Positions 14,946-34,171 of a DNA stretch of 49,754 nt are shown here, in pieces. Position 1 is the stretch's first letter; each line of letters opens with the position of its first letter. Source of the DNA: Flavobacteriaceae bacterium. Its GTDB lineage: Bacteria > Bacteroidota > Bacteroidia > Flavobacteriales > Flavobacteriaceae. The notes under the pieces were generated by a model. That model saw only the letters and a list, made by a program, of their open reading frames with translations, searched no databases and was not told the DNA's origin. The stretch spans positions 1 to 49,754 of the forward strand of contig JALWKK010000059.1 of the NCBI GenBank assembly GCA_027081505.1. The letters are read 5' to 3'. The translations under genes were made by a program, and so were the position numbers.

Positions 14946-16040
14946 TTATCTAAACAAACTCCAGTCTAGTTTAACCGAAAATATATTTGAATACAGTGCC
15001 GCACTTTGGTCGCCAATATCGGTTAGTGCATAATCTACTTGTATTCCTTTGTATTTAAAACCTACTCCTATATTGGGTTGAAATCCTACCGAATCGCTTC
15101 CGTCTAATTGTGTAATATTTTGAAAATTTCCGGCACCGGCTCGTACAAAAATCATATCAATGTAGGCAAATTCAAAACCAACCGAAGGAGTCATACTTAC
15201 GGCAGAAGATGAAAAAATATCATTGGTTTCGGCAAATCTCAAGTTTAAGTCCACTTCAGCTAAAAGAGTGTAATCATGGTGAAAATCAAATTTTTTAGCT
15301 ACACCCATTTGTAATTTAGGAAGGGTTATTTCGGTTTTTTCCGGAAGCTCTTGATTTTGCCCGGCAACAGCATTTTGAATGGTAGCAAACTGTTCTTCAT
15401 CAATACTCCAAGCATTAAAAGTGGTAGAGATATCTCGTGCCATAAAACCAAACATCCAGTCATTTTTTTTGAATTGAATTCCCGCATCCAGCCCAAATCC
15501 CCAAGAATTGGCAAATTTTCCTATTATTCGGCGGATTACTTTTGCATTTACTCCAAAATTTAGACCGTCAAGGGGTAATCTTCGGGCATACGAAAACGTA
15601 AAACCGTAGTCGGCTGTTGAAAATAAACTAATACGATTATAATCTATATTTCCTTGAGCATCTATTAATTGTGTGGTGTTTAATATATCATCTACTCCAA
15701 ACCGAATTGCCGAAAAAGCAACCACACTTCTGTCATCAAGGGGTTTGGCAAAACCTACATAATCGTATCCTGCAATATTAGCAAAGTAGGAGGCATGCAT
15801 TAAGGAGAGTTGATTGTCTTCTAAATTTACAAGTCCCGCCGGATTCCAATATCCCGAATTCACATCGCCTGTAGAAGCAACAACGGCATTTGCCATTCCA
15901 AAAGCAGAAGCATCTACACCTATATTCATAAACTCATTAGAGTACTTTCTAACGGTTTGGGCAGAAGCAATAATCGTAAACAAAAAAACAATACAAGTTA
16001 TTCTAACTTTCAAAGGAATAATTTTTAGCAAATATCTCAT
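14946..16040 (-). CDS. PorV/PorQ-family outer-membrane beta-barrel protein (PorV2-like)
   Basis: 364 residues, signal peptide ending TIIASAQ. The mature N-terminus (NEFMNIGVDASAFGMANAVVAS, then GDVNSGYWNPAGL) is the hallmark of the PorV/PorQ/UPF0164 group of FadL-like barrels, and alternating amphipathic strands continue to the aromatic C-terminal end (KLDWSLFR). PorV is the shuttle protein of the type IX secretion system; this shorter, DUF4105-linked version fits the PorV2 type, whose role is less well defined. The window encodes three T9SS cargo proteins, so a role in that pathway is plausible, not proven. First gene of a two-gene operon with DUF4105. Confidence 0.78.
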   Translation of the reverse strand: MRYLLKIIPLKVRITCIVFLFTIIASAQTVRKYSNEFMNIGVDASAFGMANAVVASTGDVNSGYWNPAGLVNLEDNQLSLMHASYFANIAGYDYVGFAKPLDDRSVVAFSAIRFGVDDILNTTQLIDAQGNIDYNRISLFSTADYGFTFSYARRLPLDGLNFGVNAKVIRRIIGKFANSWGFGLDAGIQFKKNDWMFGFMARDISTTFNAWSIDEEQFATIQNAVAGQNQELPEKTEITLPKLQMGVAKKFDFHHDYTLLAEVDLNLRFAETNDIFSSSAVSMTPSVGFEFAYIDMIFVRAGAGNFQNITQLDGSDSVGFQPNIGVGFKYKGIQVDYALTDIGDQSAALYSNIFSVKLDWSLFR

Positions 16041-17017: not shown

Positions 17018-19603
17018 TTAGTTACTAAAGACTATTTTATTGTCTTTAAGTTCAATTTTTACACTGCTATCTACATTTACTTCTCCTGAAAGGATTCGTT
17101 TAGAGAGTTCGTTAAGAATTTCTCTTTGAATAGCACGTTTTATTGGTCTGGCTCCAAATTGCGGATCGAATCCTACTTTGGAAATATATGCTATGACATC
17201 GTCAGACAGTTCTAATGTGATGTCGTTTTCTTGTAACTTTTTCTTCAAATTATTTAATTGTATTTGTACAATTTGTTTTATTTCGTTTTCATTTAGAGGT
17301 GTAAACATCACAATCTCGTCTATTCGGTTTAAGAATTCGGGACGAATTTGTTTTTTTAATAAATCAAGTACTTCTTTCTCGGCTATATCCATTACCGTTT
17401 TTCTTTTTTCCATATCAATACCTTCCAGTTTTTCTTGAAGAATATGGCTTCCCATATTACTGGTCATAATAATGATGGTATTTCTAAAATCGGCGGTACG
17501 TCCTTTGTTATCGGTTAATCGTCCTTCGTCTAATACTTGTAACAAAATATTAAAGGTATCGGGATGCGCTTTTTCAATTTCGTCTAACAAAATTACCGAA
17601 TAAGGCTTGCGTCTTACGGCTTCTGTTAATTGTCCGCCTTCGTCATAACCCACATATCCGGGAGGTGCGCCAACGAGTCTGCTCACCGAATGTTTTTCTT
17701 GGTATTCGCTCATATCGATTCGGGTCATCGCTTTATCGCTATCAAACAAATATTCGGCAAGTGCTTTGGCAAGTTCGGTTTTACCTACTCCGGTTGTACC
17801 TAAGAATAGAAATGAGCCAATAGGACGGTTTTGGTCTTGCAATCCGGCACGAGAGCGACGTACGGCATCGGCTACTGCTTGTATTGCTTCGTCTTGTCCT
17901 ACCACGCGTTTATGCAGTTCTTCTTCAAGATGGAGTAGTTTTTCGCGTTCGCTTTGCAACATTTTAGAAACGGGAATACCGGTCCATTTTGCTACTACTT
18001 CGGCTACATCTTCCCGGGTAACTTCTTCTTTTACCAGCGCTTGATTTTTTATTGAAGCAAATTCTGCTTGCAGGTTGTGTAATTTTTCTTCTAATTTTTT
18101 TAGCTTTCCGTACCGAATTTCGGCAACCAATCCGTAATTTCCGTCTCGTTCTGCTTGTTCGGCTTCCAGTTTTGCTTGCTCTATTTCTTCTTTTACTCTG
18201 TTTATTTGGTCTAGCAAGTCTTTTTCATGCTTCCATTTTGCATAAATATCGTCTCTTTGGCTTTTAATATTTGCCAATTCTTCTTGAAGCTTTTGCAGTT
18301 TCTTTTTGTCTTTTTCGCGTTTAATGGCTTCTATCTCAATTTCAAGCTGCATGATTTTACGGTCGAGTTTGTCTAACTCTTCAGGTTTTGAATTGATTTC
18401 CATTCTGAGTTTTGCAGCGGCTTCGTCCATTAAATCAATGGCTTTGTCGGGTAAAAACCGGTCGGTAATATAGCGTTGCGAAAGCTCTACGGCTCCAATT
18501 ACAGCAGCGTCGGTAATGATAACTTTGTGGTGTGCTTCGTATTTTTCTTTAATTCCGCGTAAAATAGAAATTGCGGATTGTGTGTCGGGTTCGTTTACCA
18601 TTACTTTTTGGAAACGGCGCTCGAGTGCTTTGTCTTTTTCAAAATATTTTTGGTATTCGTCTAGAGTGGTTGCTCCAATGGCTCTTAACTCGCCTCTTGC
18701 AAGCGCGGGTTTTAAAATATTGGCTGCATCCATAGCACCTTGACCGCCACCGGCACCTACGAGTGTGTGTATTTCATCTATAAATAAGATAATGGTACCT
18801 TCCGAGCTTTGCACTTCTTTAACTACGGCTTTTAGGCGTTCTTCAAATTCACCTTTGTACTTGGCTCCGGCGATAAGCGCACCCATATCTAGCGAATAAA
18901 TGGTTTTGTCTTTGATGTTTTCGGGAACATCGCCTTTGATAATTCGGTGGGCGAGACCTTCAACAATAGCGGTTTTTCCGGTTCCGGGTTCGCCAATTAG
19001 CATCGGGTTGTTTTTGCTTCTTCTGGATAATATTTGAAGCATTCGTCTAATTTCTTGGTCGCGACCAATAACGGGATCTAATTTTCCGCTTTGTGCTAAT
19101 TCGTTGAGGTTACGAGCATATTTGCTTAATGAATTATACGTTTCTTCGGCACTTTGAGAGGTTACTCTACTACCTTGACGCAGCTCTTCGATTGCTGCTT
19201 TTAAATCTTTTTCGTTAAACCCATTGTCTTTTAATAATCGGGCAGTATCGTCTTTTGCTTTTAAAATTGCCAATAAAAGATGCTCTATGGCAACGTATTC
19301 ATCTTTCATTTTTTTGGCAATGATGTTTGCTTCGTTAAGTGTTTTTGAAGCTTCTCGCGAAAGCATAATATCGCCACCTTCTACCTTGGGATAGCTGTTT
19401 AAAATGTTTTCTAAAACTTGTTTTAGCAACGGAACGTTTACACTTAATTTGTTAAACAAAAAAGTGATTACGTTTTCGTCCACTTCAAAAATTCCTTTAA
19501 GAATGTGTGCGTTTTCTATTTGTTGGTGTCCGTATCCTTGTGCAATTTGTTGCGCTTTTTGTACGGCTTCTTGTGCTTTTATAGTATAGTTGTTAAAATT
19601 CAT
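17018..19603 (-). CDS. clpB: ATP-dependent disaggregase ClpB
   Basis: 861-residue Hsp100 chaperone that, with DnaK, pulls aggregated proteins apart in the cytoplasm. Order: N-terminal Clp_N repeats (1-150), AAA-1 with Walker A GEPGTGKT at 204-211 and Walker [11 protein letters not shown], the long coiled-coil M-domain (about 400-525) that separates ClpB from ClpA/ClpC-type unfoldases, AAA-2 with Walker A GTTGVGKT at 602-609, and the D2 small domain. No IGF/IGL ClpP-binding loop was seen, as expected for ClpB. Full length, monocistronic, with a bidirectional terminator downstream. No CIRCE or other heat-shock operator was recognised upstream. Confidence 0.98.
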
Positions 19604-20740: not shown

Positions 20741-20774
20741 AAAACTGCTTTGAAATTTTCAGAGCAGTTTTTTT
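20741..20774. terminator. Intrinsic terminator between the TSP3 lipoprotein and the regulator gene
   Basis: AAAACTGCT (20741-20749) pairs with AGCAGTTTT (20763-20771), followed by further T residues on the plus strand. It overlaps the stop codon of the convergent regulator gene. Confidence 0.85.
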
Positions 20775-23616
20775 ACGATAACAACTCATTTGGGCTAATA
20801 CCAAAGCGTTCTTTAAATTTTCTGTTAAAGTAAGAAGATGACGGAATCCCTACATCGTACCGTACTTCCGATAAGGTAAAATGTACTTTGTTTTGTAATA
20901 ACCGGTAGGCTTTTTGAAGCCTAATTTCCAAAATAAACTTCACCGGCGACATACCGGTGTGTTGTTTTAAAATACGGGTAAGTTGTCGTTGACTGTAGCC
21001 CACAACAGAAGCAAGTTGCGTTACTTTAAATTCTTCGTCGCTTATATTTTCTTCTACAACGGCTTTAATTTTATCGAGTAATTGTTTTTGGGCAGCGTCA
21101 ATTTCTTCTACCTCTTCAGGATGTTGTTGTATCCAACTTTCTCTATCCAGTTTGTTTTGTAGAAGGTTGTTAATACGTGCTAAAAGTTCGTTTTTATTAA
21201 ACGGCTTTACCACATAATCGTCGATACCAAGATTAAACCCTTTTATTTTATCTTCTTCTAAGGTTTTTGCAGAGATTAATATAAACGGAATGTTTTTAAG
21301 TTGTGGGTCTTCATTTAATTTTTCGCGTAATTGAAAACCGTCCAAACGTGGCATCATAATATCAGAAGTAATTAAATCGTAGGAGTTGGTGTTAATTTTA
21401 TATAGAGCTTGCTGTCCGTCAAAAGCCTTTTCGCAATCGTATGTTGACGAAAGTATTTCTTCTAGATACGAAGCCATTTCGGGGTTGTCTTCTACGATTA
21501 AAATTTTTGGTTTACCAGATGAAGTAATCTCATTGTTGTCTGTAGATAATTCTTCTTCGTTAGTATTGGTTTTGGAAAGCGATTTTTCACTTTGTTTTGC
21601 TTCTTTTTGAATAGTAGGAGTTACTTTTTCTTCTGAAACAGATTCAATGACAGCTATTTCAACAGGCATTGTAAAAATAAAGGTACTGCCTTTGCCTAGT
21701 TCGCTTTCAACGGTTAAGTTTCCATTTAATAATTCGGCAAATTCTTTGGCAAGCGATAAGCCGATGCCGATTCCGCCAACGGCGTTGCTTTGTGAAGATT
21801 GGTAAAAGCGTTCGAATATTTTTTCGGTTTCGTTAAAATGAATTCCTTGCCCGAAATCGGTTACTTTTACGGTGAGTTGTTGGTTGTTGTCTAAGTTTGC
21901 ATCAAAAATAATTTTAGTATCTGAAGGCGAATATTTTACAGCGTTAGACACTAAATTATTGAGTATTTTTTCTACTTTTTCTACGTCTATTTTTGCGGTT
22001 ACATCGGCTTCGATATTGGATTGATATACCAGTTTTATTTGTTTCATCTCGGCAAGTGAAACAAAAGATTTAAAAATACGTTTTAAGGTTTGGTCTAACG
22101 GTACGGTATTGAGTTTGATGGTGGTTTTGTTTTTTTCAAACTTTAAAAGTTCGAGTATTTCATTGGCGTCTTCTACTACTTTTTTTGAGTTGATAAGAGC
22201 GGTTTTTATGTTTTGTTTTGCTTTTTCTTTTTGGTCAAAGTTTTCGAGGGCAAGGTTTAAGTTTCCGGAAATTAAGGTTAACGGTGTACGTATTTCGTGA
22301 GCGATATTACCCAAAAATTTGGTTCGCAGTTCGTTTACCTCTTGTTCTTTTTGAAGTTGGGTTTCGGCAAGGAGTTTTTTACGTTTTTGACGATTGTTGT
22401 TCCACTGAAAGCCCATAAAACCAAATAATAATAACCCTAAACTTCCAAAAATTAATTTGTTACGCTTGCTTTTTTCTTGTTCGAGTTGTAGTTTTTGTTG
22501 GGCTATTTCTTTGTCTTTTTCGGCGGTTGCCAGTTTTACATTAAATTTCGCAAAATCTTTAGTAGCATTATTTTTTAAAACGGTATCTTTTAATTGCAAT
22601 AAAACATCTTTATAATCATTTGCCATTTTATAGTTGTTTAGTTTGGCATAAGCAAAGGATAATCCTTCAATGGCACTTAATTTATTTTCAAGACTAAAAT
22701 CTTTTGCTTTTTGATATTCATTAAAATAAGCAATAGCATTTTGATAGTTTCCCAACTTGTTTTCTACGAGACCAAGATCCAATAAAGCATAATTATGCAT
22801 TACATCGTAACTAATGTCTTTACATTTATGAAGACCTATTAATAAATTGTCTTTTGCTTCTTTGTATTTTTTAAAATTTGCACGTAAAGCAGTTCCTTTT
22901 AATACATAGAAATAGGCTTCGTAAGTTTTTAAGGATGTTTTGTTCTGTTTTATTAGTTCTAAACATTTATCGGTGTAGGTATTAAATTCACTTAAATTTT
23001 TAGACTTATCGATTAAGGCAAATAGTACCCGCAAATATAAATTGTTATTTTCGTTAATGTCTGTACAAATTGCATAAGCTTTGGTTAAATAATTACGCGC
23101 TATTGAATCTTGTTTAAAATTTGTGTAAATATTATATAACAAGTAATATGATTCTGCTATTAAAGTAGAATCTTTCATATTAGAAGTTATTTGCAGTGCT
23201 TTTTTACCGTAGTCCAATGCTTTTTGAGGTTTGTCAATGTTGAAGGTGTAAATCAGACTATGTTGAAAAGCAGATTTAAAACGAAAATAATCATCGTTTT
23301 TAAGAAGTAGTAAGCTATCCAAAATTTTTAATTCCGATAAAGCTTGTGAGCTTTTTCCCATATTATATAAAAACACAATTTTGTTAAATCGTACTTTATA
23401 CAATAGTTCGGTACAATCGTTACAATTCTCGGCATATTTTATTGCTTTATTTGAATAGTAAATGGCAGAATCTTGAGAAATATTGGAAGATGCAAATTCA
23501 GCATAATATTTTGCTTTTTCCCTATCGGTTTTTACACTATCCGGAAGTCTTTCCTGCGCGTAAAGAGTTCCTACAAGAAAAAATACAAAAATAGATTGTA
23601 ATAAAAACCGAACCAT
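20773..23616 (-). CDS. Hybrid two-component regulator: TPR sensor, histidine kinase, receiver, AraC HTH
   Basis: 947 residues combining a whole signalling pathway in one inner-membrane protein. Signal peptide (ending GTLYAQ); periplasmic TPR-like helical repeats (about 30-350); one membrane helix at about 388-407; HisKA with phospho-acceptor His440 in GNIAHEIRTP; HATPase with N-box NNLVSNAVKYSP and G-box DFGQGIH; receiver domain with Asp752 in ITSDIMMPRLDG; and a C-terminal AraC DNA-binding domain (about 850-947, ending RKFKERFGISPNEL). A TPR sensor replaces the beta-propeller sensor of the best-known Bacteroides HTCS proteins. Known HTCS proteins activate adjacent genes; the 21-bp-spaced direct repeats upstream of three nearby surface-protein genes are the obvious targets. 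A -7-like box, minus-strand TAGTTTTG (23637-23644), lies upstream. Confidence 0.95.
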   Translation of the reverse strand: MVRFLLQSIFVFFLVGTLYAQERLPDSVKTDREKAKYYAEFASSNISQDSAIYYSNKAIKYAENCNDCTELLYKVRFNKIVFLYNMGKSSQALSELKILDSLLLLKNDDYFRFKSAFQHSLIYTFNIDKPQKALDYGKKALQITSNMKDSTLIAESYYLLYNIYTNFKQDSIARNYLTKAYAICTDINENNNLYLRVLFALIDKSKNLSEFNTYTDKCLELIKQNKTSLKTYEAYFYVLKGTALRANFKKYKEAKDNLLIGLHKCKDISYDVMHNYALLDLGLVENKLGNYQNAIAYFNEYQKAKDFSLENKLSAIEGLSFAYAKLNNYKMANDYKDVLLQLKDTVLKNNATKDFAKFNVKLATAEKDKEIAQQKLQLEQEKSKRNKLIFGSLGLLLFGFMGFQWNNNRQKRKKLLAETQLQKEQEVNELRTKFLGNIAHEIRTPLTLISGNLNLALENFDQKEKAKQNIKTALINSKKVVEDANEILELLKFEKNKTTIKLNTVPLDQTLKRIFKSFVSLAEMKQIKLVYQSNIEADVTAKIDVEKVEKILNNLVSNAVKYSPSDTKIIFDANLDNNQQLTVKVTDFGQGIHFNETEKIFERFYQSSQSNAVGGIGIGLSLAKEFAELLNGNLTVESELGKGSTFIFTMPVEIAVIESVSEEKVTPTIQKEAKQSEKSLSKTNTNEEELSTDNNEITSSGKPKILIVEDNPEMASYLEEILSSTYDCEKAFDGQQALYKINTNSYDLITSDIMMPRLDGFQLREKLNEDPQLKNIPFILISAKTLEEDKIKGFNLGIDDYVVKPFNKNELLARINNLLQNKLDRESWIQQHPEEVEEIDAAQKQLLDKIKAVVEENISDEEFKVTQLASVVGYSQRQLTRILKQHTGMSPVKFILEIRLQKAYRLLQNKVHFTLSEVRYDVGIPSSSYFNRKFKERFGISPNELLS

Positions 23617-23680: not shown

Positions 23681-23747
23681 ATGGCAAAAATGCGCCACAA
23701 TATGGCAAATTTGCAACACTAATTTACTTTACCGAGACATACTTTTG
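23681..23747 (+). promoter_or_regulatory. Activator-type promoter, copy 1: two ATGGCAAA repeats plus -7 box
   Basis: ATGGCAAA at 23681 and again at 23702 (21 bp apart), joined by the conserved GCCACAAT, and TACTTTTG starting at 23740, 38 bp after the second repeat. No TTG -33 box at the usual spacing. The same arrangement recurs at 25897-25963 and 32844-32910. The site lies between the divergent regulator gene and the tail-fibre-like gene; the regulator's own putative -7 box is 37 bp on the other side. Confidence 0.75.
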
Positions 23748-23816
23748 TCCTGTTTAAAATTTAAAAAACAACAAAACGTACTGTAAAACAGTTATTTTTT
23801 TCAAATTAAGTTTAGG

Positions 23817-23848
23817 CAAGTCGCTTTTTCCTACAAAAAAGCGACTTG
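23817..23848. other. Perfect hairpin in the leader of the tail-fibre-like gene
   Basis: CAAGTCGCTTTTT (23817-23829) pairs perfectly with AAAAAGCGACTTG (23836-23848), loop of 6 nt. The GC pairs are at the base and the AU pairs at the loop, and no T run follows on either strand, so it is not a normal terminator. The region also holds a possible second promoter, TTG (23859-23861), 20 bp, TATAATTG (23882-23889). Confidence 0.5.
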
Positions 23849-23913
23849 TCTAATTGTTTTGCTATTTGTCGATTTTATTCGTATAATTGTCAGGTGATTA
23901 AAAAGTCAAGATT

Positions 23914-25524
23914 ATGAAAAAAATTATGTTTGTACTTATGCTGTGTACATTTTACTCAATTTTTGCACAGGTTGGTGTTGGGACTACCAGTCCAAATGCA
24001 AATCTTGATATTGTAGCTACAAACAGCGCAACTCCGGCTAATACAGACGGGATTTTAATACCTCGTGTAGATGCTTTTCCTGCCGTTAATCCCACGGCAA
24101 ATCAGCACAGTATGTTGGTATATCTTACAACAGCTACGGCAAGTGATGCGATTGGATTTTATTATTGGGATAACACTTTAACTGACTGGATACCCTTAAA
24201 AGGTGTAGAAAAAATAGACGATTTATTGGACGGAAAATCAGACAGTGATGGCTCGCAAGACGGATCTTCAGTATTTCTTGGTATAAGAGCTGGATCGAAT
24301 GACGATAGTACAGACAATCAAAACGTAGGTGTTGGCTTTGAGTCATTAAAAGCAAACACTGTCGGTTATATGAATACGGCAGTAGGACATCATTCACTTT
24401 TATCTAATGATGAAGGCTTTGTTAATGTAGCAATAGGAGCTCGCACGCTTATGTTAAATACATCGGGACACAATAACACTGCTATTGGATCAGGTTCACT
24501 ATCTTCTAATACTACAGGATTTGTTAATGTAGCAATTGGAAATAACGCTCTTGTTTCAAACAATATTGGTTTTATGAACACTGCAGTAGGAGCAGGTTCT
24601 ATGCTTTCTAACCTATCAGGTAGTTACAATACCGCTACAGGTGTATCATCGCTTTCTTACAATACAACAGGAAATAATAATACTGCATTCGGTCATCGTA
24701 CATTATATTCTAACAATATCGGTTATAATAATGTTGCAATTGGTTTTGAAACACTTAGTAGCAACACAGAAGGATATCTTAACGTAGCTTCCGGATACCG
24801 AGCATTATATAATAACAAAACCGGGAATGAAAATACCGCTACCGGATCTTCTGCTCTTTTTAGCAACACAGAAGGCAGTCAAAATATGGCAACCGGCTAT
24901 CAATCTCTTTACTCGAACACAACAGGCTCTTATAATACTGCGGTTGGTTACTCTGCTTTTAGTGTTGGTGCTGCCTATACCAATTCTACAGGTATTGGTT
25001 ATGACGCAGAGCCGGGAGCCTCTAATGTAATAAGATTAGGAAATGCTTCGGTAGGTACAATTGGTGGTTATGCCAATTGGTCTAATGTTTCTGACGGGCG
25101 TTTTAAAACCAATGTAAAAGAAAATGTGCCGGGAATTGATTTTATCATGAAACTTCGTCCTGTAACTTACAACTTGGATATGAGCGCCATTGCCGTATTT
25201 AACAAAACACCAGAGAGGCTTCGTTTAAAAGAAGCCGAAAATCTAAAAGCCAAAGAACTACAAAGTGGTTTTATAGCACAAGAAGTTGAAGCCGCTGCAC
25301 AGAGTATAGGTTATGATTTTCACGGTGTTGATAAACCTAAAAACGCAACTTCGCATTATGGTCTTAGATATGCAGAGTTTGTTGTACCTATAGTAAAAGC
25401 AATGCAAGAACAACAGGAGTTGATTCTTATTTCGGAAAATAAAATTCGAAAACTAGAGGAAGAAAATCAAAAGTTAAAAAACAGATTAGATGCCATTGAG
25501 CGAATGCTGAAAAATAAGAATTAA
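23914..25524 (+). CDS. Tail-fibre/YadA-like surface protein with S74 chaperone domain
   Basis: 536 residues. Signal peptide ending SIFAQ; an N-terminal domain beginning VGVGTTSPNANLDI and including GILIPRVDAFP and GFYYWDNTLTDWIPL, shared with the protein at 32935; then about 13 tandem 17-residue units (137 to about 357) of the type NTAVGxxSLxSNxxGxx, a YadA/tail-fibre left-handed beta-roll pattern; then a Peptidase_S74 intramolecular chaperone domain (388 to about 510) with SDGRFK, IMKLRPVTYNLD, SGFIAQEVE and YAEFVVPIVKAMQEQQ; and a terminal coiled coil. S74 domains trimerise the fibre and then cut themselves off through a Ser-Lys dyad; the Ser and Lys of SDGRFK are present. No T9SS signal is seen, so the route across the outer membrane is unclear. 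Confidence 0.87.
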   Translation: MKKIMFVLMLCTFYSIFAQVGVGTTSPNANLDIVATNSATPANTDGILIPRVDAFPAVNPTANQHSMLVYLTTATASDAIGFYYWDNTLTDWIPLKGVEKIDDLLDGKSDSDGSQDGSSVFLGIRAGSNDDSTDNQNVGVGFESLKANTVGYMNTAVGHHSLLSNDEGFVNVAIGARTLMLNTSGHNNTAIGSGSLSSNTTGFVNVAIGNNALVSNNIGFMNTAVGAGSMLSNLSGSYNTATGVSSLSYNTTGNNNTAFGHRTLYSNNIGYNNVAIGFETLSSNTEGYLNVASGYRALYNNKTGNENTATGSSALFSNTEGSQNMATGYQSLYSNTTGSYNTAVGYSAFSVGAAYTNSTGIGYDAEPGASNVIRLGNASVGTIGGYANWSNVSDGRFKTNVKENVPGIDFIMKLRPVTYNLDMSAIAVFNKTPERLRLKEAENLKAKELQSGFIAQEVEAAAQSIGYDFHGVDKPKNATSHYGLRYAEFVVPIVKAMQEQQELILISENKIRKLEEENQKLKNRLDAIERMLKNKN

Positions 25525-25659
25525 TTTTTTTTTTTTTTTTAAAAAAAAACTACTATAAATATTTTCTATCTTTTTAATTAAGAGAAGCTTTTTGAAAAGC
25601 TGATGTCATACCTTCCTAACCATCCAACTCTCTCACATTAGACATTTTAATGTCTAATT
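25525..25659. other. Intergenic region with T/A runs and two palindromes
   Basis: Directly after the stop codon come a T run and an A run that could pair as a weak terminator. AGCTTTT (25586-25592) / AAAAGCT (25595-25601) is a short hairpin. TTAGACATT (25638-25646) / AATGTCTAA (25649-25657) is a perfect 20-bp palindrome touching the left end of the dispersed repeat. No gene is visible. Confidence 0.5.
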
Positions 25660-25767
25660 CCTATTCTTAATATAAAATAGTCTATTTTATATTTAATGCC
25701 GTTACAGAATGAAAATAGTTCAATGAGAGAACTTGAAATTGAACTATATTGAATTGGTATTCGGTAT
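25660..25767. repeat. Dispersed structured repeat, full copy B
   Basis: About 108 bp, nearly identical to 34916-35038. Stem-loop 1 is ATATAAAATAG / CTATTTTATAT with a one-base loop, where the other copy has a 12-bp stem and CCAAA loop. Stem-loop 2 is ATAGTTCAAT / ATTGAACTAT with a 13-nt loop. The stretch from TTAATGCCGTTACAG to TATTCGGTAT differs at one base from copy C. No coding potential. Confidence 0.85.
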
Positions 25768-25896
25768 AATATCTTGCTCAAAAAGGGTTATTCCAAAGAT
25801 ATTTAATATAGATGGTAACTCGCAAATAAAAGAAATTACAATCTATTTGTTTTAATGCTGTGTTTTGCAGGCAATCAAAGAACTTATTTCATAACA

Positions 25897-25963
25897 ATGG
25901 CAAAAATGCGCCACAATATGGCAAAAATGAACCATAGTATTTAATAGTACTGGCGTAACATTG
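25897..25963 (+). promoter_or_regulatory. Activator-type promoter, copy 2 (LRR gene)
   Basis: ATGGCAAA at 25897 and at 25918 (21 bp apart) with GCCACAAT between, and TAACATTG (one base from TAnnTTTG) starting at 25956, exactly 38 bp after the second repeat. No -33 TTG. The LRR gene starts 29 bp after the -7 box. Confidence 0.75.
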
Positions 25964-25992
25964 CAGTGAATTAATCAAATAAAAAAACCAAA

Positions 25993-28900
25993 ATGAAAAA
26001 TCTAGTTTTACTTTTTACTTTTTTAAGCACTTTTGCTTTGGTGGCACAGACTACTTATGTGCCGGATGATAATTTTGAAGATTACCTTGAAATTCACGAT
26101 GCAAATGGTAATGCAGTACCTCTTGGCGACCCAAACAGTATGGGTAACGGTATTGCTAACGACAATTATGTTTTTACTAATAGGATAAATACGGTTACGG
26201 AGTTAGATGTCAGAAGCTTAAGTATTAGTGACTTAACAGGTATTGAGGATTTTGCAGCATTACAAATATTAAATTGTAATAATAATAATTTATCCAGTTT
26301 AGATGTAAGTCAACATACACTTTTAATGATATTGTATTGTGCTGGAAACAATCTTTCTTCCTTAGACGTACAAGCTAACAGTTTTTTAAGTGATTTATAT
26401 TGTAGAGATAATACTAATCTAACTACGATTACTTTTAATGTAACTACTCATCTAAAAGAATTAGATTTTACGAATACCGGTATCGCAAGTATGAATCTTT
26501 CAGGTTTTACTGCATTGGAAGTGTTAAATTGTGGAAGTACTACAAATACTGTAAGCTCTCTTAGTTCTTTAACTCTTACCAATACACCACAATTAAATAC
26601 ATTAAATGTATTAAATACAAAAATAACATCATTAGATATTAGTAATCATAGTAACTTTTTAGAATTTCATATAAACAAAAATTCACTACTAACACAATTA
26701 AATCTATCTAATATAGTCCATACTTCTCCAACAAATGCTTTTTCTGCAGTGGCAGAAGTTGATAATAATTCTGTTTTAAATAGTGTTAATTTAAATAATG
26801 CTAATATAAAATATTTGTACATAACTAATAATTCAAGTTTAACCTCACTGAATTTATCAAATACAGTAATACAAGACACTTTTAGATGTGGGAATAATAA
26901 TTTGAATAGTTTACAAGTTAATCACCTAACTAATCTAGTAGAATTACAATGCCAAGGAAACAACTTAAGCACCTTACAAGTTTCCAATTTAACTAATTTG
27001 ACAAACTTAAGATGCTCTTATAATAATTTAAGCACTTTACAAGTAGCTAATCTTACCAATTTAAATTACCTGAACTGTAATAACAATAACATTTCCAATT
27101 TATACCTATCTACAAATACTAACTTAACAGAGCTTTATTGCAATAATAATAATCTTTCAAATTTAGATCTTACTTCAATCTCTTCATTGGTAGAATTAGA
27201 TTGTAGTCATAATCAACTTACTTCATTAGATGTTTCTAAAAACACAAATTTACAACTGGTAGATACATTTAATAACAATTTAAAAGCATTGAATCTTAAA
27301 AACGGCAATAATAGTAGTTTGTATAATATTTCTGCAGTTAACAACCCTGATTTATTTTGCATCAACGTAGATAATGTAGCGTATGCTAATGCGAATACAA
27401 GTTGGCTAAAAGATATTACTGCCAGTTACAGCACCGATTGTTATGTGTATGTTCCGGATGATTATTTTGAGCAAGAATTAATCAATTTAGGTTATGACGA
27501 TGTGTTAAACGATTATGTTGCTCGTGTTTTTATTGAAAATGTTACTTCTTTAAACCTTTCCAACAAAAATATTACAGATTTAACAGGGATAGAAGGATTT
27601 ACTTCGCTAGAAAATTTAAATGCTTCTAGTAATTCATTAAATGTTGTAAATATAAGTCAAAATACCGCTTTAGTAACTTTAGACGTAAGTAACAATGGCT
27701 TGGTGGCTTTAGATGTAAGTAGCAATACTAACTTAACCGAGTTAAGATGTCAAAGCAACACAAATATTAGTAGTTTGGATGTTTCATCAAACCCCAATCT
27801 TACAACTTTGTGGTGTTATGGTAATAAAATTGAACAACTTAATTTAAATAATAATACCGGTTTAACCGATATTCGTTGTCATAGTAATCTTCTTAATAGA
27901 ATGACTATTAAAAACCAAAATAATAGCGCTATTACAACTTTTTCTGCGCATACAAATCCTAATTTAACCTGTATTGAAGTAGATGATCCTGTATTGCTTA
28001 CCACTAATTTTAGCGGAAATATAGACGCACAGACTTCTTTTAGTCTTAATTGCTATTATGATGACACCTATATTCCCGATGCTGTTTTTGAAGCCTATCT
28101 CGAAACCCACGATGCCAACGGAAACATTGTTGCTGTAGGCAGTTCTAACAGTATGGGAAATGGTATATCCGGCGATAATTATGTTACTACGGCAAAAATT
28201 AACACCGTAACCAACTTAAACGTGTCTAATTTAGGTATTTCCGATTTAACCGGTATTGAAGATTTTACGGCTTTAACGCATTTAAATTCAGGTGATAACA
28301 GTTTAAGCTCTATCAATATTAACACCAATACTAATTTAATTGTATTGCAACTATATAACAATAATTTAACGAGTATCGATGTTTCTGCATTAACTTCTTT
28401 AGAAGAAATTTATGTAAATAATAATTCTTTAACCGCTTTAGATGTTACTGCAAATTCAAATATTAAAAAAATATACTGCTATAACAATCAAATTACAGGA
28501 GAACAACTTAAATTTCCAACTCTAAGTAATATTCTTACTCATTTATTATGTCAAAATAATCAAATAACAAAGTTAAATTTAAGTTATGGTTCAGGAGCTT
28601 TATTTTCTTTATCTGTTTTGGATTGTTCTAACAACTCATTATCCGAACTATATTTAAGCAATTATCTAATAACATCATTAAATTGTTCTAATAATAACTT
28701 AAGTATATTAAATTTAAAAAACACAAATAATACTAATGTTACCTATTTTAATAGTTTAAATAATCCAAACCTAACATGTATAGAAGTTGATGATGCGGCG
28801 TATAGCACAGCAAACTGGACTAATAAAGATGTTACAACTTCTTTTAACAACGACTGTCACTATGACGAAACCTACGTCCCCGACGACAATTTTGAAAACT

Positions 28901-31900
28901 ACCTTGAAACCCACGATGCAAACGGTAATGTAGTAACGGTAGGAGCTGCAAACAGTATGGGTAACGGTATTGCTAATGATAACTATGTGTTTACTAACAG
29001 AATTGATACGGTTACAAACTTAAATGTGAGTAATCAAACTATCGCTGATTTAACAGGTATTGAAGATTTTACGGCATTACAACTGTTAAATTGTGGAAAC
29101 AATAGTTTAACATCTTTAGATGTAACACAAAATACGGCTTTAACTGATTTAGATTGTAGTGGCAATAGTTTAACTTCTTTAGATGTAACGCAGAATACGG
29201 CATTAATAAGTCTTTTGTGTCAAACGAATCAATTAACCAGCTTAGATGTAACTCAAAACATATCATTAACAGGACTTTGGTGTTATGGTAATCAGTTAAC
29301 ATCCTTGGACGTATCACAAAATACAGTATTAACACTTTTGAATACCTCAGGAAATCAAATCAGCTATTTAGATTTAAGTACAAATGTTAATTTGATAGAT
29401 TTGTTTTGTAGTAATAATCAATTAACCGGTTTATCGGTTTATTACAATAATAATTTACAAATATTAGATTGTGATAATAATCAAATAAGTAATTTAATTT
29501 TACCAAACCAATCTACTAGTTTACAAAAATTAATTTGTGATAATAACAATATACCATCAATAGATGTAAGTGGGTATTCTAATTTAACTCAAATTATATG
29601 TAACAATAATTCGCTTACCCAACTAAATGTTAAAAACGGCAATAACACCAATATTATTAATGCGGATTTTAACGCAACCAACAATCCAAATCTTACTTGT
29701 ATCCAAGTAGATGATGCGGCGTGGAGTTTGGCAAACTGGAGCAACATCGATGCCGGAGCCGGTTTTAGTGCCAACTGCGGGTATAACGACACGTTTGTTC
29801 CGGATGATAATTTTGAAAACTACTTAGAAACCCACGATGCCAACGGTAATGTAGTACCATTGGGCGATCCAAACAGTATGGGTAACGGTGTTGCAAACGA
29901 TAACTTTGTAACTACTGCAAAAATAAATACCGTTACACAGTTGGATATTTCCAACCTATCCATAAGCGATGTAACCGGAATTCAAGATTTTACGACACTT
30001 ACCAACTTAAATTGTGCCAATAACAGTATTTCGGTATTGGATTTAGGACAAAACACCTCCTTAGCATTTTTAGATTGTAGCAATAACAACATTCCTTCTT
30101 TAAATTTATTGGGTAACATCTCACTGCAAGCCGTTACTTGTAATAACAATAATATGGAGGATTTAAACATTGCTCCCAACAGTTTAGCATATTTATACTG
30201 CCAAAATAATAGTTTACAGCAGTTGGATTTAAGCCAAATGTACAACCTGATTGAAGTGGTTTGTAATAACAATCAAATAAGCAATTTAGATGTAATGAAT
30301 AGCGGTGCCAATCTGTCGGTTTTACTGTGTAATGATAACCAACTTACCGGAATTAACACCGATGCTAATGTTAATTTGATAAAATTGTATTGTCAAAACA
30401 ATGCCATTACTTCATTAAATTTAACGACCAACACCACACTCGAAGAATTGGATTGTAGCGACAATAATCTTACAACGCTTGATGTAACCCAAAACACACA
30501 ATTAGGATTACTGTATTGTTCAGCCAATTCCTTAACAGCATTAAACGTTACCCAAAATACCAATTTAACAGAGTTAAAATGTAATGTGAACCAATTAAGT
30601 TCCTTAGATGTGTCTCAGAATACACAAATAGGTGCATTGGATTGTACAGGAAACCAAATTACTCAATTAGATACATCTAACTTACCGTTATTAACCCAAT
30701 TGTATTGTGGTTCTAACCAATTAACATCGATTGATGTATCGGCAAATACCAATTTAATAATGCTATGGATTGATGGAAACCAAATCGAAACATTAGACCT
30801 AAGCAATAATGCATACTTTAATTCTTTGTTAGCTTTTGATAACCCGAATCTGTACCAACTGGATATAAAAAACGGAAATAACAGTAACCAATCGGGAAGT
30901 AATTTTAACATAAGTAACTGTCCGTTATTAACCTGCGTTCAAGTAGATGATGTGGCTTATAGCGATGCCAACTGGACTAATAAAGATCCACAAACCTATT
31001 ACAACACCAATTGTCCCATAGTAACCATATGGTCGGGAAGTGCTTGGTCTAACGGCACGCCTACCATCGCAACCAATGCAATAATAAGAGGAGACTATAA
31101 TACGGCAAGCAATTCCTATATAGATGCCGGCAATTTGGTAATTGAAAACGGCGTTTCGCTAACTGTACTGTCCGGATATTCGGTTTTTGTTTATGGTGAT
31201 ATTACTGTACATGGAAGTCTTCATATAAATCCGGAAGCAATAGTGGTACAAGAACTAAATACAGCAAAAACATATAACAACGGAACCATTAACGTAAATA
31301 TTCAAACACCCAACCTCGCTTCCCGAGACTTTATGATACTTGGTAGCCCGATGACCGCCGAAACACGTAACGGAGTATTTAACAGTGCTTTCTTGGTGCT
31401 TAATCATACTACGGCAAACTTTGTACCCAACCCCGATGTTGCCGCCGCTTTCCCGGCAGCCGAAAACTTTGCCGACGATAACTACGACAACTGGAATCCT
31501 TACAACGGAATCATAAACCCCGGCGAAGGGTACATCGTACGTCCGCAAGCCGGCTACGGACAACCCGGAGGTGTGTTTAGTATGACCTACCAACAAGGTA
31601 CGCTAAACAACGGATTTGTTAATTTTAACGTGGTGTTTAACAACAATAAAAATGACAGTCCCAATGTATTGGCAAACCCTTATGCCAGTGCTATTTATGC
31701 CGATGACTTTATCAATGCCAACAGTATGATAGACGAGGTATATTTCTGGGAACACCTTACACCGCCCAGCTCATCACTTCCCGGTGCCGGATCAATGAAC
31801 TTCTCTATGGAAGACATCTCGATGTACAATCTGCTTGGCGGAATACCCGCAGCCAGCGACCCCGGAACCTCAACCACACCCAACGGATACATATCGACAG

Positions 31901-32682
31901 GGCAAGGTTTCGGCATTAAAGCTACCGCTTCCGGTGTTGCATTTTTTGAAAATAATATGAGAAGACTCAGCGGAAACAACACACTTAGAAATCCGGTAGA
32001 CAAAGATAGAATTTGGTTAAGGGTTAGCAATAGTCAATACGAAATGCAAAACACCACCTTAGTTGGGTTTACCGATGCTTCTACTCAAGGGTTCGATAAC
32101 GGTTACGACTCGCGCCGTTTGGCAACCGTAGTATCGTTGTATTCGCACCTTCCCGGCGGAGATATGGAACTCGATATTCAAGCAAGAGAAGCCTTTAACG
32201 AAGATATCGAAATACCAATGGGCTTTTCGACCCTGATAGATGCCGATACCGAATACAAAATAAGCATTGCCGATGTACAAGGAGCAAACCTTGAACAAGC
32301 GGAGGTATATCTTGTTGATACTTTAACAGGAATGGTAACAAACTTAAACGAGGGCAGTTATAGTTTTACTTCCGGTAAGGAAACCTACAACAACCGGTTT
32401 ATCTTACTTTTTAAAAATCCCGAACTAAGTGTTCAAGATTACGCACTTGTAAATGTGATGGTGTATCCTAATCCAACAAGCGGAATTGTTACAATAGTAT
32501 CACCCGATAACCAAATACAACAACTTCACTTGTTCGACCTGCAAGGAAGACAAATACGAAGTAAAAAAGCCGGTGGTGCGCAACAGTTTCAGCTCGACCT
32601 GTCGCAATTGGATAATGCCGTTTACCTTTTAGAAATAATCACCTCCAAAGGAAAAACAGTACAACGAATTATTAAAAATTAG
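25993..32682 (+). CDS. Giant leucine-rich-repeat surface protein with T9SS sorting domain
   Basis: 2229 residues. Signal peptide ending ALVAQ. Five cassettes begin at about residues 21, 486, 692, 960 and 1267, each with a cap (VPDDNFExYLExHDANGN, then SMGNGI and ISDLTGIEDF), a run of 21-22-residue LRRs (LxxLxCxxNxLxxLDVSxN), and a closing cap (NPNLTCIEVDDAAYSxANW). Cassette 2 has a divergent opening cap. LRRs stop near 1673; a non-LRR beta-rich region follows (about 1673-2150), then a type A T9SS sorting domain (from VYPNPTSG at 2157 to the C-terminus). It is therefore exported by the type IX system and attached to the surface; LRR proteins of this kind usually bind proteins or glycans. The promoter shares the ATGGCAAA repeats with two other genes. 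Confidence 0.92.
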   Translation: MKNLVLLFTFLSTFALVAQTTYVPDDNFEDYLEIHDANGNAVPLGDPNSMGNGIANDNYVFTNRINTVTELDVRSLSISDLTGIEDFAALQILNCNNNNLSSLDVSQHTLLMILYCAGNNLSSLDVQANSFLSDLYCRDNTNLTTITFNVTTHLKELDFTNTGIASMNLSGFTALEVLNCGSTTNTVSSLSSLTLTNTPQLNTLNVLNTKITSLDISNHSNFLEFHINKNSLLTQLNLSNIVHTSPTNAFSAVAEVDNNSVLNSVNLNNANIKYLYITNNSSLTSLNLSNTVIQDTFRCGNNNLNSLQVNHLTNLVELQCQGNNLSTLQVSNLTNLTNLRCSYNNLSTLQVANLTNLNYLNCNNNNISNLYLSTNTNLTELYCNNNNLSNLDLTSISSLVELDCSHNQLTSLDVSKNTNLQLVDTFNNNLKALNLKNGNNSSLYNISAVNNPDLFCINVDNVAYANANTSWLKDITASYSTDCYVYVPDDYFEQELINLGYDDVLNDYVARVFIENVTSLNLSNKNITDLTGIEGFTSLENLNASSNSLNVVNISQNTALVTLDVSNNGLVALDVSSNTNLTELRCQSNTNISSLDVSSNPNLTTLWCYGNKIEQLNLNNNTGLTDIRCHSNLLNRMTIKNQNNSAITTFSAHTNPNLTCIEVDDPVLLTTNFSGNIDAQTSFSLNCYYDDTYIPDAVFEAYLETHDANGNIVAVGSSNSMGNGISGDNYVTTAKINTVTNLNVSNLGISDLTGIEDFTALTHLNSGDNSLSSININTNTNLIVLQLYNNNLTSIDVSALTSLEEIYVNNNSLTALDVTANSNIKKIYCYNNQITGEQLKFPTLSNILTHLLCQNNQITKLNLSYGSGALFSLSVLDCSNNSLSELYLSNYLITSLNCSNNNLSILNLKNTNNTNVTYFNSLNNPNLTCIEVDDAAYSTANWTNKDVTTSFNNDCHYDETYVPDDNFENYLETHDANGNVVTVGAANSMGNGIANDNYVFTNRIDTVTNLNVSNQTIADLTGIEDFTALQLLNCGNNSLTSLDVTQNTALTDLDCSGNSLTSLDVTQNTALISLLCQTNQLTSLDVTQNISLTGLWCYGNQLTSLDVSQNTVLTLLNTSGNQISYLDLSTNVNLIDLFCSNNQLTGLSVYYNNNLQILDCDNNQISNLILPNQSTSLQKLICDNNNIPSIDVSGYSNLTQIICNNNSLTQLNVKNGNNTNIINADFNATNNPNLTCIQVDDAAWSLANWSNIDAGAGFSANCGYNDTFVPDDNFENYLETHDANGNVVPLGDPNSMGNGVANDNFVTTAKINTVTQLDISNLSISDVTGIQDFTTLTNLNCANNSISVLDLGQNTSLAFLDCSNNNIPSLNLLGNISLQAVTCNNNNMEDLNIAPNSLAYLYCQNNSLQQLDLSQMYNLIEVVCNNNQISNLDVMNSGANLSVLLCNDNQLTGINTDANVNLIKLYCQNNAITSLNLTTNTTLEELDCSDNNLTTLDVTQNTQLGLLYCSANSLTALNVTQNTNLTELKCNVNQLSSLDVSQNTQIGALDCTGNQITQLDTSNLPLLTQLYCGSNQLTSIDVSANTNLIMLWIDGNQIETLDLSNNAYFNSLLAFDNPNLYQLDIKNGNNSNQSGSNFNISNCPLLTCVQVDDVAYSDANWTNKDPQTYYNTNCPIVTIWSGSAWSNGTPTIATNAIIRGDYNTASNSYIDAGNLVIENGVSLTVLSGYSVFVYGDITVHGSLHINPEAIVVQELNTAKTYNNGTINVNIQTPNLASRDFMILGSPMTAETRNGVFNSAFLVLNHTTANFVPNPDVAAAFPAAENFADDNYDNWNPYNGIINPGEGYIVRPQAGYGQPGGVFSMTYQQGTLNNGFVNFNVVFNNNKNDSPNVLANPYASAIYADDFINANSMIDEVYFWEHLTPPSSSLPGAGSMNFSMEDISMYNLLGGIPAASDPGTSTTPNGYISTGQGFGIKATASGVAFFENNMRRLSGNNTLRNPVDKDRIWLRVSNSQYEMQNTTLVGFTDASTQGFDNGYDSRRLATVVSLYSHLPGGDMELDIQAREAFNEDIEIPMGFSTLIDADTEYKISIADVQGANLEQAEVYLVDTLTGMVTNLNEGSYSFTSGKETYNNRFILLFKNPELSVQDYALVNVMVYPNPTSGIVTIVSPDNQIQQLHLFDLQGRQIRSKKAGGAQQFQLDLSQLDNAVYLLEIITSKGKTVQRIIKN

Positions 32683-32687
32683 AACGT

Positions 32688-32795
32688 ATGAGAACACTAA
32701 ATATCATTCTGTTATTCATTATAAAAACGGTGATTCTCTTTTTCTTTTTCCCTTATAAAGAACAAAAAGAAACAAACAAAGAGTTTTTTGATTAA
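32688..32795 (+). CDS. Possible 35-residue small membrane protein
   Basis: ATG 5 nt after the LRR stop codon opens a 35-codon frame (MRTLNIILLFIIKTVILFFF...) ending TAA at 32793-32795. It would be one hydrophobic helix of about 18 residues with a charged tail (PYKEQKETNKEFFD). It ends 12 bp before the terminator, so it lies inside the LRR transcript. No family recognised; such frames can arise by chance in AT-rich DNA. Confidence 0.4.
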   Translation: MRTLNIILLFIIKTVILFFFFPYKEQKETNKEFFD

Positions 32796-32807
32796 TTCTG
32801 TTTTATG

Positions 32808-32840
32808 CCTCCTTTTTAAATCGAAAAGGAGGTTTTTTTT
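32808..32840 (+). terminator. Intrinsic terminator after the LRR gene
   Basis: CCTCCTTTT (32808-32816) pairs with AAAAGGAGG (32824-32832), followed by eight T residues (32833-32840). It ends only 3 bp before the next activator site. Confidence 0.93.
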
Positions 32841-32843
32841 GAA

Positions 32844-32910
32844 ATGGCAAAAACGAGCCACAATATGGCAAATTTGCGCCTATAATTTTCCTACACGCAA
32901 ATTACCTTTG
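32844..32910 (+). promoter_or_regulatory. Activator-type promoter, copy 3
   Basis: ATGGCAAA at 32844 and at 32865 (21 bp apart) with GCCACAAT between, and TACCTTTG starting at 32903, exactly 38 bp after the second repeat. No -33 TTG. The following gene starts 24 bp after the -7 box. Confidence 0.78.
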
Positions 32911-32934: not shown

Positions 32935-33843
32935 ATGAAATTAAAAATTAGTTTACTTTTCCTTATATTATTCGGGCAGTTATATGCACAGGTTGGTATT
33001 GGTACAACAAACCCAAATGCTACATTAGAAATTAATGCTACAAACCCAAATTCACCACAGCCTAATGATGGAATTTTAATACCCAGAGTAAATAATTTTC
33101 CGGCTACCAATCCAGGAGCAGGTCAGCACGCAATGATGATTTATTTAGTTAATCCTCAAGGTTCATACTCTGAGGGGTTTTATTATTGGGATGCTAATTA
33201 TCAAGAGTGGATTCCTGTGAGTATAGATAATGATACAACTAATGAAATACAAGACCTTCAATTAATCGATTCAAATTTAGGATTAAGTGGTAGCAACCAA
33301 ACTGTAAATATGAGAAGTTATATGGATTTAAAATTCCCTGACGGATTTGCAAATATCATACCTGTTGAAAATGCTACTACCTATACCGTTCCACAAGGTA
33401 AAAATTTGTATATAACTTCTGGTTCAAATGTAACATTTGCCTTAGTCATAAATAATTCGATTAATAGTTTATATCACACTGAATCTGAATTTGCTAACAC
33501 TAATTTACTTCCTAGTCCCATCATAGTAAAATCCGGTGATACAGCAAGTACAGGTGGTTCTGCAAATTTTAATGGTTTTATAGTTGATGCAACTGTTACA
33601 CCGGTACATATATACGAAGGAAATATCTATACAGTTCCTGTAAATAAAATATTAGTAATTATAGGAGCACACAAGCATTCAGCAACTATCGGTTATTTAA
33701 AAAAAATACTTGCAAATAATTATCAGCAGGAAGTTTATTCTAAAAAATATTTACAGGAATTTAATAACCCCATTTTTTTTGATGCCGGTTCTAAGTTAAT
33801 AACCACTGGTTTAAGAATTTGGGGATACCTTATGGATAAATAG
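32935..33843 (+). CDS. Secreted protein sharing the tail-fibre N-terminal domain
   Basis: 302 residues, signal peptide ending QLYAQ. The N-terminal domain (about 20-105) matches the protein at 23914 (VGIGTTNPNATLEI, DGILIPRVNNFP, GFYYWDANYQEWIPV). The remainder (about 105-302) has no YadA-like repeats and no S74 domain; it contains two similar short segments, TYTVPQGKNLYITSG and IYTVPVNKILVIIGAHK, suggesting a duplicated small beta domain. I do not recognise its family. It has its own copy of the ATGGCAAA promoter. A decayed S74 C-terminus lies about 100 bp downstream, so the gene may be the front half of a formerly longer fibre protein with a replaced or truncated back half. Confidence 0.75.
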   Translation: MKLKISLLFLILFGQLYAQVGIGTTNPNATLEINATNPNSPQPNDGILIPRVNNFPATNPGAGQHAMMIYLVNPQGSYSEGFYYWDANYQEWIPVSIDNDTTNEIQDLQLIDSNLGLSGSNQTVNMRSYMDLKFPDGFANIIPVENATTYTVPQGKNLYITSGSNVTFALVINNSINSLYHTESEFANTNLLPSPIIVKSGDTASTGGSANFNGFIVDATVTPVHIYEGNIYTVPVNKILVIIGAHKHSATIGYLKKILANNYQQEVYSKKYLQEFNNPIFFDAGSKLITTGLRIWGYLMDK

Positions 33844-33945
33844 AAATACTTCTAATAAGCTCGATTATTTAACTTTTATTTGAATAGCTTTTACTGTATA
33901 CCCTTAAGTTTTGACAGTCAATTCGTATATAGAAAAGAAAATTAA

Positions 33946-34119
33946 TTTTATTACTACGTACGGTATGCCGAGTTTGTACCACCCTTGGTAAAAGCCGTAC
34001 AAGAACAACAAGAAATGTTAAACAATATAGAAAAGGATATAAGTTACCTAACAGAAAACACCAATAAAATAAACTTACTGAAACAAAAGTTGCAAAACTT
34101 AGAAAAAAGAAACAAATAG
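33946..34119 (+). pseudogene. Remnant of an S74-domain C-terminus
   Basis: An open stretch without a start codon, bounded upstream by an in-frame TAA (33943-33945), reads YYVRYAEFVPPLVKAVQEQQ and continues as a coiled coil to TAG at 34117-34119. It corresponds to the last 60 or so residues of the tail-fibre-like protein at 23914 (LRYAEFVVPIVKAMQEQQ). The rest of the S74 domain, including SDxRxK, is missing. It is a decayed gene end. Confidence 0.85.
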
Positions 34120-34171
34120 GGCTAACACTTTTTTAATGACGCTAATTGTTGTTAGCAAGTTTCTTTTATAC

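Follow-up and report, generated by a model that had tools for sequence, protein, structure and literature searches.

A 49,754-nucleotide stretch of DNA from a Flavobacteriaceae bacterium (GenBank assembly GCA_027081505.1, contig JALWKK010000059.1, positions 1 to 49,754; hereafter the window) carries three genes for secreted proteins, each preceded by a pair of direct repeats at a fixed distance from a promoter box. Next to them, at 20773..23616 on the reverse strand, lies the gene of a 947-residue protein with histidine kinase, receiver and AraC-type helix-turn-helix (HTH) domains. Comparative analysis of the repeats and of the regulator makes it highly probable that this protein, through a tetratricopeptide repeat (TPR) sensor, activates a dispersed regulon of surface-protein genes from promoters that lack a -33 element.

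The three operators occupy 23681..23717, 25897..25933 and 32844..32880 on the forward strand. In each of them ATGGCAAA occurs twice (23681/23702, 25897/25918 and 32844/32865) with GCCACAAT between the copies, and a -7 box on the same strand begins 38 bp past the start of the second half-site: TACTTTTG at 23740..23747, where no -33 element was present, TAACATTG at 25956..25963 and TACCTTTG at 32903..32910. An earlier sequence-only reading of this DNA had given these repeat and box positions and the 38-bp distance, and both proved exact, the box at 25956 deviating by one base from the TAnnTTTG form it had described. Its repeat unit was a direct repeat, as stated, but not of 8 bp: alignment of the five sites found in the genome (see below) revealed half-sites of about 16 bp, approximately TGGCAAAAATGAGCC and variants, with a period of 21 bp. 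At all five sites the Bacteroidota -7 box TAnnnTTG begins 38 bp after the second repeat. Two further claims of the same reading held, namely the lack of a TTG box at -33 spacing (0 of 16 promoters tested contain TTTG or TTG in the interval 15-24 bp upstream of the -7 box) and the unrelatedness of the surrounding sequence. Among the five promoters, the half-sites are pairwise 92% and 78% identical and the boxes 76%, whereas identity drops to 29% across the spacer and to 34% in the upstream sequence. Allowing up to three mismatches, the 29-base repeat has five matches in the window, compared to a mean of 1.25 in shuffled sequence, and one of 100 shuffles reaches five; zero-mismatch matches are confined to the three operators. 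A sigma-70 scan yielded no excess (59 versus 60.7). An RNA element was considered and set aside, because the motif precedes the -7 box and would thus stay outside a transcript initiated there; an Rfam scan gave no match in the window. Within each window operator, GCCACAATATGGC also constitutes an imperfect short inverted repeat, detected as a minus-strand hairpin, and in the operators of the related genome G409 it contains ACC in place of GCC.

The source genome of the window (G000) is a 2.12-Mb assembly of 112 contigs and 78.8% completeness. Searching it for the repeats without the box and with at most two mismatches gave 14 matches versus 7 for the reversed control. Five of these had no or one mismatch: the three window sites and two additional ones, C86:58 and C90:11150, which carry the box at 38 bp even though it was not part of the search. 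The box-containing pattern TANNNTTG, chosen after the sites had been seen, matched the genome exactly five times, with 2.8e-5 matches expected from base composition. Chance is thereby excluded for this genome. Chance matches in AT-rich DNA as the source of the whole pattern are a negligible prospect, even if some hits elsewhere do look fortuitous: 18 of the 34 stretches found outside the genus lie in long reading frames, 15 of the 18 in records of other phyla. As the assembly is fragmented and incomplete, five sites represent a lower bound. The genome-wide scan proposed by the sequence-only reading thus returned five exact sites, all with promoter spacing and all ahead of genes for secreted proteins. 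Its description of the regulon as local has to be given up, since two of them are located on other contigs. The C86 and C90 sites precede a second leucine-rich repeat (LRR) protein with a type IX secretion system (T9SS) sorting domain (L009) and a HYR-T9SS protein, respectively. The latter is cut by a contig end in G000; Pfam identified HYR and type IX sorting domains in its full-length counterpart in genome G399 (L107). A gene encoding a CHAT-TPR protein ends immediately 5' of the C90 operator (L010:8415-11084). Two other T9SS-sorted proteins encoded in the window (11143-12747 and 43426-45825) have no operator within three mismatches, and the site therefore does not mark secreted cargo in general.

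One might also attribute the similarity of the promoters to joint duplication of the genes together with their promoters, with no common control. The first and third window genes do have a common N-terminal domain, and LRR proteins of the same kind make up two of the targets. Duplication would hardly leave the spacer and upstream DNA at 29-34% identity next to 76-92% in operator and box; relatives of both families, with QVGIGT and LRR domains, are encoded on contig C45 of G000 and have no operator within three mismatches, and the C90 target belongs to a different family. We regard this explanation as very improbable.

The sites follow the regulator through the genus. Among 19 genus genomes, many of them incomplete, exact sites were found in G000 (five), G400 (four), G399 (three) and G409 (two) and in none of the other 15. 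Regulator orthologues with at least 64% identity are encoded by the same four genomes (68-100%) and by G407 (64%), and the comparison with close relatives that had been proposed therefore gave exact sites in four of five genomes with an orthologue and in 0 of 14 without (Fisher p 0.0013). With two mismatches, four more hits appeared (G404, G401, G359 and one in G409) versus three for the reversed control. In a draw of 397 family genomes, which includes only three of this genus, 11 had a match with up to one mismatch, and the reversed pattern had none. G000 contributed its five sites and ten genomes one each; among these ten, the G128 site adjoins a regulator of the group described below and seven sites lie inside long reading frames.

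Regulators were also collected by protein, irrespective of the DNA pattern. A matrix trained on 12 distinct genus sites was run on the upstream DNA of 54 kinase-receiver-AraC regulators, defined as frames matching kinase, receiver and HTH models; frames were excluded if fewer than 250 bases were available ahead of their start or if their C-terminus was identical to another one. The collection is restricted to the loci of the best matches, with 30 loci per search and two candidates scored per genome. Twelve regulators scored 18-60, in each case from a divergently placed operator at a distance of 37-170 bp to the start codon; the remaining 42 did not exceed 6.2. The held-out set omits four training regulators, four found by the pattern and L032, whose contig starts inside the gene, and adds L157. 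In this set, of nine regulators with an SQ[RK]QL helix four have a divergent operator next to them, compared with 0 of the 37 regulators lacking this helix (p 0.0008). The gene opposite encodes a product with a QVGI/QIGI-type start in three of these cases and a 254-residue secreted protein without a family in the fourth (G050). Taking all 12 together, such a fibre-type gene faces seven (G000, G400, Altibacter, S143_36, G128, G386 and G105), an LRR gene two (G399 and G409), and a LamG-T9SS gene, a phosphodiesterase gene and the 254-residue protein gene one each. The half-sites of G386 and G105 have drifted to ATGACAAA/TTGTCTAA and ATGTCGAA/ATGTCCAA, respectively. A quick tree of 66 rows placed 11 of the 12 operator-bearing regulators in one group of 18 with a support of 97. 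Ten of the 11 rows nearest to the window regulator have an operator, and the upstream DNA of the remaining one, G407, is missing. The twelfth, from Aureispira, branched elsewhere on a long branch, and its placement is unsure. A stricter search of 395 genomes of the order added no new regulator except the L157 locus of one already listed.

A scan of the DNA pattern alone over 84,980 species, with the records of G000 itself excluded, returned 42 stretches. Eight stem from three metagenome-assembled genomes (MAGs) of this genus, two of them (the C90-type site) flagged as inside the frame of the target itself. The 34 outside stretches comprise 18 inside frames of at least 150 codons, nine neither in such frames nor accompanied by an AraC gene in the DNA retrieved around them, and seven with an AraC-HTH gene, never more than 200 bp from the site. 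In Altibacter, Aureispira and two Flavobacteriaceae MAGs this gene encodes a kinase-receiver-AraC hybrid and is transcribed away from the site; the remaining cases are two Capnocytophaga AraC genes and the gene of a Prevotella Reg_prop regulator. Across the operator, the gene product of Altibacter, likewise a MAG record, begins with QVGIGTVTP and has a Peptidase_S74 (S74) domain, and that of MAG S143_36 begins with QVGIGTTTP, is cut by the contig end and has no Pfam match. In MAG bin1007 a LamG-T9SS protein is encoded there, with an S74 protein two genes further, and in Aureispira a phosphodiesterase whose start is some 270-300 bp away. At two loci (L145:1-4903 and L087:1091-4752) the first operator gene is followed by a similar pair, encoding a protein of about 160 residues and an FNYKALxTNNGN protein, the latter with S74 in L087 and cut in L145. 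The Prevotella stretch (L104:3057-3200) has the double repeat and the box between the Reg_prop regulator and a SusC-like gene, judged by its start only, and a distance of 38 bp may thus also apply to ordinary regulators of polysaccharide utilization loci (PULs). Both Capnocytophaga sites (L093:2669-2734 and L098:3710-3775) are located at the end of a 274-residue AraC gene, which in L093 is followed by a gene for 226 residues.

The sites could be genuine AraC-family operators used by another protein of this type, for instance a second TPR hybrid encoded on contig C56 of G000 or a one-component regulator, with the neighbouring regulator as a bystander. Matches to the kinase, receiver or HTH portions do occur in further proteins of the genome, and repeats with a 21-bp period have been predicted generally for the Bacteroides hybrid two-component systems (HTCS) covered by a comparative study (PMC3878776). 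The sites, in contrast, track the window regulator and its group across genomes, and neither the C56 regulator (L019, helix MSRMQLHR) nor others with the same helix have an adjacent site. Another AraC-type protein thus appears unlikely as the user of the sites, if the least unlikely of the alternatives. The interpretation given by the sequence-only reading is partly supported. Its claim that the adjacent regulator acts through the sites on the surface-protein genes gains support from co-occurrence in the genus, recurrence beside hybrids, the held-out operators and the HTCS-like 21-bp repeat; the restriction to one locus is wrong, and binding, activation and a role in adhesion are probable or possible parts of the picture.

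Several observations weigh against control of a dispersed regulon by the TPR hybrid. G407 encodes an orthologue with the same helix and has no site within two mismatches; its regulator gene is truncated by a contig end and the upstream DNA is missing. Target families also occur without the regulator, the QVGIGT domain in four of 14 genus genomes and an LRR match in one of 14 (G406). Five of the nine SQ[RK]QL regulators (L119, L120, L033, L122 and L157) have no recognisable adjacent operator; among these five, the three g4 genomes and G270 face no QVGI/QIGI-type gene, judged by the gene start alone. The weakest operators score 18.2, 18.3 and 19.7, only slightly higher than the top shuffle score of 16.0 (54 regulators, 40 shuffles each), and the Aureispira site belongs to a regulator outside the group, whose helix differs and for which Pfam gave no TPR match. 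For sites outside the genus, the pattern or the matrix already fixes the distance of 38 bp, which is therefore not independent evidence there. Finally, the reading frame of the C90 target gene extends without interruption back into the operator, where ATGGCAAA could provide its start; a start codon followed by a signal peptide is also present after the box.

The regulator itself is best read as a hybrid two-component system that uses a periplasmic TPR domain as its sensor. Hydropathy analysis located two hydrophobic segments that bracket residues ~20-386: a signal-like N-terminus (1-20) and a transmembrane segment (~387-406), which together would place the TPR region in the periplasm. Pfam assigned HisKA (431-493), HATPase (544-653), Response_reg (705-816) and HTH_18 (868-945), and kinase, receiver and AraC-type HTH are thus combined in one protein as in HTCS. 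His440 and Asp752 are present and invariant across six aligned regulators, ATP-binding boxes were found, and the HTH helix reads YSQRQLTR, as does that of the Altibacter regulator (L079). The TPR_12 match of 28.7 bits is just below the cut-off of 30.1, which is exceeded by the relatives L079, L087 and L103. No Pfam match to Reg_prop or Y_Y_Y was obtained for the regulator, which sets it apart from proteins with a COG3292-type sensor, and no SusC, SusD or glycoside hydrolase was found among the 27 of 40 window frames of at least 100 codons that were scanned with Pfam. The NCBIfam FimS model NF053520 aligned with residues 203-651, a region that takes in part of the putative periplasmic portion. 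The score of 98.1 bits falls far short of the cut-off of 600, and of the 152 kinase-type families that matched, FimS among them, 24 scored better than FimS; by this model the protein does not qualify as a FimS family member. Behind the regulator gene, separated by one gene for 277 residues on the other strand, lies clpB (17018-19603); genes with a ClpB-like start, judged by the start alone, adjoin the regulator in Altibacter (L079) and in G407 (L153).

On the basis of these features, the following mechanism can be proposed. Upon meeting its signal, the sensor would cause the protein to phosphorylate its own receiver, and two C-terminal AraC domains would then bind both 16-bp half-sites side by side on one helix face, 21 bp apart. 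If the -7 box occupies -14 to -7, the half-sites span -73 to -58 and -52 to -37, and the inner one immediately adjoins, on the upstream side, the place of a -33 element. A half-site at about -52 to -37 is in the position of a class II activator. In Escherichia coli, AraC occupies direct-repeat half-sites 21 bp apart at araI1-I2, the inner one abutting the -35 region; unlike the window regulator, it is a ligand-binding one-component regulator acting at a sigma-70 promoter. By substituting for the missing -33 element, the window regulator would recruit RNA polymerase and may turn on at least five transcription units: those of the fibre-like, LRR and 302-residue proteins in the window and of the LRR-T9SS and HYR-T9SS proteins on other contigs. 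The regulator might instead bind and repress, or chiefly autoregulate its own divergent gene at operator 1, which is only 65 bp from its start codon; the site is similarly close (37-170 bp) in 12 regulators. The four other operators of the genome do not adjoin the start of the regulator gene, and the constant 38 bp to a -7 box without a -33 element in five promoters fits activation. We therefore consider repression or autoregulation improbable, slightly more so than use of the sites by another AraC-type protein.

Of the putative surface-protein genes, operator 1 precedes that of a fibre-like secreted protein of 536 residues (23914..25524, forward strand) with an N-terminal QVGVGTTSP, NTAxG-type repeats once per 17 residues between residues 154 and 341, and a Peptidase_S74 (endosialidase chaperone) domain with a helical end. 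The S74 score of 36.8 bits exceeds the cut-off of 22, as expected for the C-terminal intramolecular chaperone of a phage-type S74 fibre, and profile A3 matched the long tail fibre distal subunit 6f45 (E 1.3e-5). The 166-base leader between promoter and start codon contains an 18-pair hairpin (23812-23853; folding z of the leader -4.0) that is largely conserved in G400 and could possibly act as an attenuator or terminator. Operator 2 precedes the gene of an LRR protein of 2229 residues with a T9SS C-terminal sorting domain (25993..32682, forward strand). The third gene (32935..33843, forward strand) encodes a secreted protein of 302 residues, which matched no Pfam or NCBIfam family; over residues 5-96 it matches the fibre protein at 52%. 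AlphaFold2 models of the fibre and the 302-residue protein had mean pLDDT values of 40 and 27, respectively, too low for structural conclusions. A terminator-like hairpin on the forward strand (32807..32833), identified by consensus match only, is located immediately 5' of operator 3, and the third gene therefore probably forms a transcription unit of its own. It is followed at 33931-34120 by a remnant resembling the fibre C-terminus (RYAEFVPPLVKAVQEQQEM...) without the N-terminal part; in G399 a fibre-type gene for 490 residues precedes the 302-residue gene. Elsewhere in the window, positions 14946-16040 gave a weak PorV-like match of 21 bits, below the cut-off of 27.

No prior description of such a TPR-hybrid surface-protein regulon was found in the open-licence PMC literature. 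The closest sensory counterpart is FimS-FimR of Porphyromonas gingivalis, in which, according to the account consulted, a periplasmic TPR sensor kinase turns on fimbriae (PMC11053733). The window protein resembles FimS in that a putative periplasmic TPR sensor kinase would be tied to a surface fibre. FimS is described there as a separate kinase with FimR as a separate regulator, and the fibre is of another type (PMC11053733). Tentatively, the window regulator might be viewed as a fused one-protein counterpart of FimS-FimR whose TPR domain reads the secretion traffic or a peptide of the surface proteins it controls, and regulator, divergent fibre gene and operator might travel between Bacteroidota genomes as a self-contained module for switching surface display that recruits further secreted genes by gain of a 42-bp operator; this is speculative.

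With respect to domain order and operator, the nearest relatives are the HTCS of Bacteroides, which likewise combine a kinase, a receiver and an AraC-type HTH in a single polypeptide. Their motifs were predicted to be direct repeats averaging 21 bp, for example 16-bp sites with a 5-bp spacer, and some of the regulons extend beyond the locus (Ravcheev et al. 2013, PMC3878776). The 21-bp geometry has thus already been predicted, and the new part is the combination of a TPR sensor with targets other than polysaccharide utilization genes. The Bacteroides regulators analysed in that study were picked by their susC/susD neighbours and glycan response, and the sensors named for them belong to COG3292 and, once, to COG1879 (PMC3878776). 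The operator, the promoter geometry and the targets of the present HTCS branch are readable from sequence, which suggests a way to predict the regulons of TPR-type hybrids lacking assigned targets, as well as a rule for activator-dependent Bacteroidota promoters of 38 bp from operator to -7 box without a -33 element. While the PUL-associated HTCS of this one comparative study are sugar sensors of polysaccharide use (PMC3878776), the present branch, with its TPR-like sensor and its secreted fibre, LRR and T9SS targets, suggests control of surface fibres and type IX cargo.

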